34,513 bases of DNA from Deltaproteobacteria bacterium (GTDB taxonomy: Bacteria; JAEEML01): positions 1 through 34,513 of the forward strand of contig JAEEML010000009.1 in assembly GCA_016283195.1 (NCBI GenBank), read 5' to 3'. This document shows, in pieces, positions 12,632 to 15,230 of the stretch. A program made the position numbers and the translations under genes. Below the pieces are notes generated by a model. It saw nothing but the letters and a program-made list of their open reading frames with translations. It was not told the DNA's origin and made no database searches. Every line of letters starts with the position of its first letter. Positions within the stretch are counted from its first letter, which is position 1.

Positions 12632-14227
12632 TTATTCACTGATGCATTGGTGATCATCGGGAATATCACCGTTGTACGCGCCTTGGGCAGTAAAATCACA
12701 TCTGGTATTGCCGGAGAAAACAATATTTCCTTCAAAAGTAACATCAGAGCCGCTTCTCAAAACCAGAGCGCCTTCGCTACCTTTGCCACCATTCATAAAG
12801 CTGGCATTTTTAATGGTGCTGGCTTGTGAATCACGGGTATATTCAATATGGCCCCACTGTTTACCGCTATGGGCAGTAGTAAAAATAGTGTTTTCAATAT
12901 TAAGAGAAGCATTGTTAACAGTAATATTTACACCATCTTCAATGCGCACTTCACCAACTTTAATATTCAAAGTAGCATTTTCAGATACATCTAACCAATC
13001 TTTTACAATAAACGGCACCGGCTGAGCAACCCAGGTAGCGTCCTTAGTAACATAGCCAGCTTCCAGCGCAATTTGGGTATAAGTATCTGTAGCTTTAAGA
13101 ATCGGGCTGAGCTGACCAACGGCTTCCGGGTGAGCAAAAACAGCATTAGCACTAGACATATCAGCAAAGAAGTTCTCGGTAAATGAAGGTACAACGGCCT
13201 TCTGTTCCAAAACAACGCCGCTCTCTTTGGGAGCTACAAAGTCGCAATGGTCAATAGAAGCGCCGCGGCTTTTGATTCTAATAGCTTCTGTAGCATATTC
13301 AAAGATAGTATAAGCAAATCTGCTGCTGGTTTGAGCTTCGTCTTCAAATTTTATCCCATTCCAATCTCCGGCGCTAGGCTCGCTGGCGGTTGAAGTAAAG
13401 AGTATTTGCTTTTCTTTTTTGCCTTCACAGAAAATAGCGCCATTGGTGGCTACAGTGATGGAACCACCGATATTCATAAAGAAAGTATTGCTATCTTCAA
13501 TAGTAAGGGCGGCATTCAAATCAACCCAGTTTTCAAGCTCAAAAGGAATCGGTTGATATTTCCAAGTGGCTTTACTGGTAACATGGCCGGACGGGACAAA
13601 AATCACCGAAGAAGCGGTATCATCTATTTTGATGGTTCCAACTGAGCGCAAAGCATTGGGATGAGCTTTAATGGCATAAGCGCCGTTCATTTTGGCAAAA
13701 TAGTTGCCGCTAAATGAATCGAGAGTGACATTTTCGCCCAGGACAACACCAACATCTTTCGGAGCAATAAAGTCACAGTTGTCAACAGAAGCGCCGATTT
13801 TGTCCATTTTCAAAGCTTCTGTAGCATATTCAAAGATAGTATTAGAAAATTTGCTGCCATTGGCGGCTTCATTGTCAAAATCAATACCTTTCCAATAACC
13901 GGCGGAAGGAATATCGGTATCGGCAGTAAAGATAATAGTTCTGTCTTTATCACTTCCGCCCTCGGAAAGAATGCGGCCGCCACCACCAATGGTAAGACTA
14001 GCTTCGCGCCCCATTCTTATGGTAGCACCGGGCTCGATGGTCAAAGTGGCGTTTTCTACAGTAACCCAACCTTTAATGGTGTGAGAACCCCGCCAAGTGG
14101 TATTGGCTTTAATAACTTCTCCTTCGTGAACGTAAGAGGAGCCGCCGTCCAAAATGATACAACTCGGAACACTCAGCGACAAGAGCGATGAGAGGGCCAG
14201 TACCGGCAACGTCTGCTTTAATTTCAT
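12632..14227 (-). CDS. Predicted lipoprotein with right-handed beta-helix-like repeats
   Basis: A 531-residue exported protein. The signal peptide ends in the lipobox VPSC with acyl-acceptor Cys23, so it is probably an envelope lipoprotein. The rest is three modules of a beta-helix type: each opens with a TW dipeptide (Trp45, Trp222, Trp399; exactly 177 residues apart) and a strand reading like GWVTVENATLTIEPGATI. The first two modules continue with SAGxWxGIxF, IFEYATEA and GASxDxCDF. The third departs and ends after about 135 residues with two Cys (510, 528). Such modules resemble surface proteins of Myxococcota and often bind or display glycans, but no catalytic residues can be named. AAGGAG lies just before the ATG, and a good promoter is found at 14276-14304. 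No close family symbol is recognised. Confidence 0.85.
   Translation of the reverse strand: MKLKQTLPVLALSSLLSLSVPSCIILDGGSSYVHEGEVIKANTTWRGSHTIKGWVTVENATLTIEPGATIRMGREASLTIGGGGRILSEGGSDKDRTIIFTADTDIPSAGYWKGIDFDNEAANGSKFSNTIFEYATEALKMDKIGASVDNCDFIAPKDVGVVLGENVTLDSFSGNYFAKMNGAYAIKAHPNALRSVGTIKIDDTASSVIFVPSGHVTSKATWKYQPIPFELENWVDLNAALTIEDSNTFFMNIGGSITVATNGAIFCEGKKEKQILFTSTASEPSAGDWNGIKFEDEAQTSSRFAYTIFEYATEAIRIKSRGASIDHCDFVAPKESGVVLEQKAVVPSFTENFFADMSSANAVFAHPEAVGQLSPILKATDTYTQIALEAGYVTKDATWVAQPVPFIVKDWLDVSENATLNIKVGEVRIEDGVNITVNNASLNIENTIFTTAHSGKQWGHIEYTRDSQASTIKNASFMNGGKGSEGALVLRSGSDVTFEGNIVFSGNTRCDFTAQGAYNGDIPDDHQCISE
12635..14101 (-). repeat. Three in-frame 531-bp gene-internal repeats
   Basis: Residues 43-219, 220-396 and 397-531 of the beta-helix lipoprotein are successive copies of a 177-residue module; the last is incomplete. 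Some DNA is still identical between copies one and two, for example the 29-base stretches starting at 13283 and 13814, which are 531 bp apart, so the duplication is either fairly recent or maintained by conversion. Confidence 0.75.
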
Positions 14228-14347: not shown

Positions 14348-14644
14348 CTATTTCACATTTTCATAATGTGTCCACAGGCGAATGATTTTTACTGCGCCTT
14401 CATATTCTATTCCACCATCGGTAATTGCTTTATTGATTATCTCGTAAACCAACCTGTGTTTTATATTTATTCTTCGGGAATAAAGTCCGCTAAGATTGCC
14501 AACAAGCTCTTCATATGGCGGCTCTAGCGGATTCTTTCTAAGAATTTCGATTAGCGCTTTTGCTTTGCCATCGAGCAAAGCTGCTTTGAGATTTTTGGCA
14601 TCTTTGGCTGCCTGCTGGTCGTAATAATATATTTCGCTAAGCAA
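14348..14644 (-). CDS. Txe/YoeB-family mRNA endonuclease toxin, apparently orphan
   Basis: A 98-residue protein that lines up with YoeB/Txe toxins over its length: a helical start (QQAAKDAKNLKAA), NPLEPPYEELVGNLSG, then YSRRINIKHRLVYE and a final IIRLWTHYE. These toxins cleave mRNA in the ribosome; by comparison with E. coli YoeB the active-site residues are Glu45 or 46, Arg64 and His93, all present. There is a small insertion around 71-82. The best start is a TTG at 14642-14644 that gives a family-like N-terminus, but no ATG or GTG and no Shine-Dalgarno precede it. No Phd/YefM antitoxin is present: only 47 bases separate it from the cyclic-nucleotide-binding gene upstream, and the 120 bases downstream are non-coding. 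It may be poorly translated, decayed, or controlled by a remote antitoxin. Confidence 0.75.
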   Translation of the reverse strand: MLSEIYYYDQQAAKDAKNLKAALLDGKAKALIEILRKNPLEPPYEELVGNLSGLYSRRINIKHRLVYEIINKAITDGGIEYEGAVKIIRLWTHYENVK

Positions 14645-14691
14645 AATAAAGAAGGCTAATGTAAAAATAGCGCTGGGGTATGGTGATGAGA

Positions 14692-15177
14692 TTAGCTATC
14701 CGCTCTGATGGTGGCGCTGGCCAGCATGGAAGTGGTGGTGTAAATGGTCTCATTGGCTTTACGCAAACGGTGAGCCAGAGCAATAGCTACCGATTTATAA
14801 AACTTAGCCGCCATTTCAAAATCGGAATTAATGATTTTTTCCAAATCGCTGCGCTTTAAAACAATGAGCTGCGTATCGGTAATAGCTTTGATGGTGGCAC
14901 TGCGCGTGGCATCATCAAGAAGCGACATCTCACCGAAATAATCCATCTCGCCGAGAGTATTAACTTGAATCGGCGGCGAATTAGGATCTTTATCCACCAT
15001 AACGCCCACCCGCCCATGCTTAATAACATAAAGAGCGTCACCGGCATCGCCGACCCGGATAATATCCTCGCCGGCAGGCACATTTTTGGAAAAAATCACG
15101 CGGTTAAAACGCATAATTTCCATAGTGGAGAAGTATTTAAAAAATGAAGTACCACGCAAAAGTTCTGTGTTTTCCAT
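14692..15177 (-). CDS. Stand-alone cyclic-nucleotide-binding domain protein
   Basis: A 161-residue cytoplasmic protein made of one cNMP-binding beta-roll (about 10-125) and a C-terminal helix. The phosphate-binding cassette is clear: FGEMSLL with Glu83 for the ribose, and TRSAT with Arg92 for the cyclic phosphate, so cAMP or cGMP binding is likely. Unlike CRP or FNR it has no helix-turn-helix, so it must act by protein contact. The ATG at 15177 is chosen because GGGGG sits five bases upstream; a TTG five codons earlier would place the start inside that site. It has its own strong promoter at 15202-15230. The YoeB-like toxin lies 47 bases downstream on the same strand and is probably on the same transcript. 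Confidence 0.88.
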   Translation of the reverse strand: MENTELLRGTSFFKYFSTMEIMRFNRVIFSKNVPAGEDIIRVGDAGDALYVIKHGRVGVMVDKDPNSPPIQVNTLGEMDYFGEMSLLDDATRSATIKAITDTQLIVLKRSDLEKIINSDFEMAAKFYKSVAIALAHRLRKANETIYTTTSMLASATIRADS

Positions 15178-15201
15178 AGTTCCCCCAAACAAAGCTGCAT
15201 A

Positions 15202-15230
15202 ATTATGGCATATATAAAAAAAGCGGTCAA
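15202..15230 (-). promoter_or_regulatory. Predicted strong promoter of the cNMP-binding gene
   Basis: On the minus strand TTGACC (15225-15230) and CATAAT (15202-15207) are 17 bases apart, with TG plus one base before the -10 giving an extended element and an AT-rich spacer. It is one of the best promoter matches in the window and ends about 25 bases before the ATG. Confidence 0.6.

Follow-up and report, generated by a model that had tools for sequence, protein, structure and literature searches.

The window analysed here (the whole 34,513-nucleotide contig JAEEML010000009.1 of a Deltaproteobacteria bacterium, assembly GCA_016283195.1) carries a gene for a YoeB toxin with an intact catalytic core. 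No YefM antitoxin gene accompanies this gene, its N-terminus is unlike that of the family and it has no Shine-Dalgarno sequence. We propose that the toxin gene is probably the 3′ remnant of a yefM-yoeB module, which would have lost its antitoxin gene recently and together with the normal toxin start. Toxin production is probably rare or absent; therefore, the cell would tolerate a lone toxin gene.

Identification of a YoeB-type toxin gene

The toxin open reading frame lies at positions 14644-14348 of the minus strand and encodes 98 residues from a TTG start. When this frame was compared with curated profiles, NCBIfam TIGR02116 (toxin_Txe_YoeB) gave 62.9 bits (cut-off 51.8, E 2.4e-17) and Pfam YoeB_toxin gave 31.1 bits (cut-off 27). 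As far as sequence profiles can tell, these matches are far above chance and the score exceeds the curated TIGR02116 cut-off for the Txe/YoeB family. Judged by these scores, the frame at 14348..14644, which a preliminary description had presented as an orphan YoeB-type gene with a TTG start, is real. Profiles and the alignments of relatives place the homologous part at codons 8-98 and the stop codon (14348..14623, minus), and this part contains Glu45, Arg58, Arg64, His93 and Tyr94.

Glu45, Arg58 and Arg64 align with Glu46, Arg59 and Arg65 of E. coli YoeB, and His93 and Tyr94 are conserved in the family. From their place at the C-terminus, His93 and Tyr94 are probably the counterparts of E. coli His83 and Tyr84; the alignment ends before both. 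The available part of PMC3814384 gives Glu46, Arg59, Arg65, His83 and Tyr84 of E. coli YoeB for catalysis or mRNA contact, with Glu63 as a further such residue. Lys62 of the window toxin stands opposite this Glu63, a position at which the relatives have Lys or Gln. The catalytic residues named earlier (Glu45/46, Arg64 and His93) are present, Glu45, Arg58 and Arg64 by alignment and the His-Tyr pair by family conservation. Furthermore, the best structure matches of the predicted toxin model are YoeB and YoeB-like toxins. With the E. coli YefM-YoeB complex (PDB 2a6q), the window toxin shares the fold, according to the predicted model, the catalytic Glu, Arg and Arg by alignment and, putatively, the His-Tyr pair by position. 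In contrast to the E. coli system, it has no antitoxin, its N-terminus is not family-like, Lys occupies the Glu63 position, its loop is nine residues longer than that of the short relatives and four residues follow the Tyr.

The five closest relatives among the matches listed (L013-L017) are from Treponema/Spirochaetaceae metagenome-assembled genomes, with 75-82% identical residues. All five are yefM-yoeB pairs; two or three bases separate the end of yefM from the toxin ATG. The window toxin is like these toxins over residues 8-98 and shares with them the longer loop that precedes the last strand. However, the toxins of the five relatives begin with MYLIK or MFLIK and have yefM upstream, and the window toxin has neither feature. 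Plasmid records gave 11 matches, all under 60% identity to the toxin, and phage records gave no toxin match. In the organism's own genome, the search for a further YoeB gave no match at E up to 0.001.

The G+C content of the toxin gene is 39%, as compared with 49% for the window. This difference would agree with an assembly or binning artefact, in which sequences of two strains or contigs were falsely joined at the junction and the pair is intact in the real genome; the assembly is a draft of 190 contigs with 4.18% contamination. However, the two gaps adjoining the toxin gene are also low in G+C (35% and 38%), and the site is internal to the 34.5-kb contig, far from its ends. We consider such an artefact highly improbable.

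Search for the antitoxin gene

The orphan state given in the preliminary description was borne out: YefM profiles find no antitoxin in the window, and the 47-base gap ahead of the toxin gene (14645..14691, minus) has none. The same holds for the 3.2-Mb draft assembly, in which YefM profile A1 gave no match to a YefM-type antitoxin at E up to 1. This profile gave matches in four of four control genomes, where the best matches are rows of the profile itself; three of the four also have a non-row match at 4e-7 or better. A search of the own genome with a single Treponema YefM also found no antitoxin. This search is uninformative alone because it had no control.

Pfam PF02604 revealed two Phd/YefM-like genes in the own genome, on contigs C17 and C108, both scoring below the cut-off (27.5 and 25.5 bits; cut-off 29.8) and both invisible to profile A1. 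A third match, with E 0.75, lies within a 257-codon frame on contig C141 and was taken as chance. If the protein from C17 or C108, for example, neutralized the toxin, the antitoxin would be encoded elsewhere, as had been suggested. However, both genes adjoin apparent toxin partners of their own, namely a ParE/RelE-type gene directly after the gene on C17 and a PIN-like frame (labelled by eye) directly after that on C108. Given these partners and the absence of an A1 match, we regard an antitoxin encoded elsewhere as very unlikely. The Phd/YefM-like and ParE/RelE-type pair of C17 (L002, positions 1477-2051) is intact, and its ParE/RelE-type gene is the only ParE_toxin match of the genome at E up to 0.1.

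Among 115 other YoeB loci, which are not independent (at least three pairs, L027/L035, L029/L058 and L031/L080, share an assembly, and genomes may recur across sets), yefM is directly upstream in 114, counting any same-strand YefM match whose end lies between 150 bases ahead of the toxin match and 60 bases past it. The 114 consist of 80 of 80 GTDB loci, 7 of 8 and 22 of 22 loci in other genome sets and 5 of 5 contigs of a viral collection, and the relatives counted include 80 of 220 confirmed stretches. It should be mentioned that the YefM model for this count was rebuilt from an 85-locus set, the earlier model having been seeded with five of those loci, and that an earlier count of 85/85 omitted the weak matches L010-L012, which 114/115 includes. 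The sole locus without yefM (L010) is a weak match and starts 130 bases from the contig end on the upstream side. As judged from these sequences, a YoeB locus that lacks the antitoxin is exceptional among related loci.

Start signals and N-terminus of the toxin

The preliminary description had stated that the toxin has no ATG, GTG or Shine-Dalgarno start. Indeed, an in-frame ATG is absent from the frame and the sole in-frame GTG is codon 97. The anti-Shine-Dalgarno pairing ahead of the TTG was calculated as +1.3 kcal/mol, as compared with -1.5 to -14.3 kcal/mol at 23 chosen starts of the window, from which an alternative TTG (+1.2 kcal/mol) of the gene upstream was left out. At the toxin starts of 112 relatives, the median was -5.5 kcal/mol and the weakest value was +0.6 kcal/mol, and none of the 112 depends on a TTG or has a Shine-Dalgarno as weak as that in the window. 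The other three relatives (L012, L065 and L091; 3 of 115) have no start within nine codons and are outside this comparison. All three are YoeB genes linked to yefM, and the nine codons adjoining their conserved part contain no ATG, GTG or TTG. In two cases, this stretch has in-frame stops; the three are possibly broken toxins or misplaced alignments. The TTG of the window toxin lies within a small predicted hairpin (-3.3 kcal/mol), and the folding of a longer stretch around it is no better than that of shuffles (z -0.25).

The TTG is at position -7 from codon 8, where 38 of the 115 relatives start with ATG or GTG. Therefore, the TTG may be an altered old start. Even if it is, this TTG is, by its sequence context, the poorest start seen. 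In contrast, codons 1-7 (14624..14644, minus) lack the N-terminal pattern of the family, which was derived in this analysis and is not a curated family criterion. Counted from codon 8, the residue at -4 is Glu in the window but aromatic in 112 of 115 relatives, and that at -2 is Tyr in the window but I, L or V in 113 of 115. Both residues of the pattern are found in 111 of 115 relatives and neither is found in the window toxin. The only relative with neither is L091, which has stops in that stretch. Thus, the position of the TTG and the residues after it point in opposite directions.

When the DNA of the window was compared with that of the five nearest relatives, 3-5 of 15 bases were identical in the five codons before codon 8, which include the ATG of the relatives, as compared with 20-23 of 30 bases directly after these codons. 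The DNA of these relatives aligns from 14623 (three relatives) or 14616 (two relatives) to the end of the toxin gene; by tblastn, a few relatives align already from residue 1. In the AlphaFold models, the first ten residues have a pLDDT of 65 with a predicted strand at residues 6-8 in the window toxin, against 94 with a strand at residues 2-6 in L013. The mean pLDDT of the whole model is 81 for the window toxin versus 91 for the relative, and few rows cover the N-terminal residues. Because the window model is less confident throughout, the weak predicted N-terminus is only partly specific.

A proposed loss of the antitoxin and the normal start

The ancestral locus would have been an ordinary yefM-yoeB module, spread by horizontal transfer, and the relatives found nearest to its subtype are those of Treponema/Spirochaetaceae. 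We infer that the antitoxin gene was lost by deletion or recombination, together with the normal start and the first strand of the toxin; the junction would lie near 14623/14624. Codon 8 to the stop codon would have been left behind, downstream of the neighbouring gene. Only short repeats occur at the junctions and none is convincing. The same event would have silenced the toxin, which would make the loss of the antitoxin survivable. In other words, the cell would have escaped poisoning because both the antitoxin and the normal toxin start were lost in a single event. Any toxin protein still made would be expected to act as a ribosome-dependent mRNase, in trace amounts. It had been suggested that translation is deliberately very weak; the start signals agree with very weak translation but do not show it to be deliberate, and the normal start looks lost with the antitoxin.

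The state of the coding part bears on the age of this event. The window toxin keeps all 27 strongly conserved columns, which were picked without the window sequence; in 52 of 85 relatives, at least one of these columns is broken. Against the five nearest relatives, dN is 0.12-0.17 and dS is saturated. When 10 random changes (3.4% divergence) were simulated, 4.9% of copies kept the frame and 30 conserved residues, a list that is slightly circular, being taken from an alignment that includes the window. With 20 random changes, 2.9% of copies kept the 17 invariant residues. The coding part has no stop and keeps 27 of 27 columns; therefore, the silencing, if real, is recent. No date for the loss of the antitoxin follows from these tests, and most of the constraint on the toxin gene can predate this loss.

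The same features could be those of a working solitary toxin, for which the TTG would initiate translation very weakly on the transcript of the upstream gene; the low dose would be tolerated or would serve to slow growth. The intact frame with its conserved columns and low dN versus dS would fit this idea, as would the top matches of the predicted structure, the location of the TTG, at which 38 of 115 relatives start, and the absence of a terminator-like site between the two genes. Moreover, OrtT is an orphan toxin according to the available text of PMC4344625. However, the toxin has the weakest Shine-Dalgarno of the starts compared, its TTG is placed in a small hairpin, the N-terminal pattern of the family is missing and the constraint on the gene may be older than the loss of the antitoxin. 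We regard a working solitary toxin as unlikely. It keeps a small share of our confidence because the undecayed frame and conserved sites require that the loss of the antitoxin was recent.

The neighbouring cyclic-nucleotide-binding protein gene

The gene upstream of the toxin gene encodes a stand-alone cyclic-nucleotide-binding (cNMP) protein (14692..15177, minus). Its ATG at 15177 follows GGGGGA, and a TTG at 15192 is a longer alternative. The gene belongs to an ftsZ-DAGK-cNMP neighbourhood. The protein has no Pfam domain besides the cNMP-binding domain; six further matches to this domain are present in the own genome, including two near each other on contig C3. A promoter-like site precedes the gene (15202..15230, minus; 10/12 match, extended -10). 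The toxin had been described as lying 47 bases after a cNMP gene with a strong promoter. The spacing is correct and the site is a good one, but the count of promoter-like sites in the region is not above that of shuffles (5 versus 3.5, sd 1.8). Terminator-like sites number 4 in the region versus 1.7 in shuffles, and none is in the 47-base gap, which has no Shine-Dalgarno and folds no better than shuffles. The cNMP gene, as the upstream neighbour, is perhaps co-transcribed with the toxin gene.

This arrangement would suit the earlier proposal that the neighbour has taken the antitoxin role: the genes adjoin on the same strand, the gap is 47 bases and a promoter-like site is upstream. By analogy, the solitary MazF-mx and MrpC of Myxococcus offer a contested precedent in the available parts of PMC4803016 and PMC2654758. 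An active YoeB might then have been captured by the cNMP gene, made in traces from its transcript and restrained or switched by the cNMP protein. If this were true, a second messenger would control an mRNase, as a counterpart of the contested MazF-mx/MrpC pair. However, no cNMP gene was found in the analysed flanks of the 115 other toxin loci, which range in length from a few hundred bases up to about 8 kb, and no YoeB is at any of 29 cNMP loci outside the own genome (best stray YoeB, E 0.78; stray YefM, E 0.63), the comparison loci for both genes being all outside the phylum of the organism. The 29 loci (L105-L133) were drawn from cNMP matches in 69 of 98 genomes, the own genome included, and the controls for the cNMP search, namely five cNMP loci from the own genome, were all matched. 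A conserved cNMP-toxin pair was rejected on these counts (0/115 and 0/29). We consider it most improbable that the cNMP protein has turned into an antitoxin or regulator of the toxin, and the capture of an active YoeB by the cNMP gene seems just as remote. The phylum of the organism is sparsely sampled in the searched genome collection, where the own genome is its sole member.

Comparison with other orphan toxins

Of the preliminary reading as a whole, the orphan state, the catalytic residues and the absent start signals stood, and an antitoxin located elsewhere and a neighbour in the antitoxin role were not supported. Orphan toxins of this kind have been reported before. In the accessible part of PMC12654330, YoeB is among the top five orphan toxins of marine metagenome-assembled genomes. 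Those orphan YoeBs are likewise without a recognized neighbouring antitoxin, but they come from annotation counts, whereas paired relatives indicate a loss in the present case. According to the portion of PMC10790755 at hand, orphan toxins are abundant in E. coli and genome quality affects such counts. Myxococcus MazF-mx is also an mRNase toxin without its usual antitoxin, for which the regulator MrpC has been proposed as a surrogate; this role of MrpC is disputed (available sections of PMC4803016 and PMC2654758). However, as described in those sections, MazF-mx belongs to another toxin family and MrpC is encoded 4.44 Mbp away, whereas the cNMP gene here is adjacent.

Since orphan YoeB has already been reported as common, the window toxin is an ordinary, well-resolved instance. 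It may illustrate how a lone toxin gene with an intact active site can persist: the antitoxin and the normal start appear to have been lost at the same time. For surveys of orphan toxins, this suggests a comparison of each orphan with its paired relatives at the start of the gene before a function is assumed.

A 531-residue protein encoded in the window (12632-14227, minus) has no Pfam or NCBIfam match. By eye, its start resembles a lipoprotein signal, and internal repeats (GASVDNCDFIAPKDVGVVLGENV / GASIDHCDFVAPKESGVVLEQKA) are visible in it.
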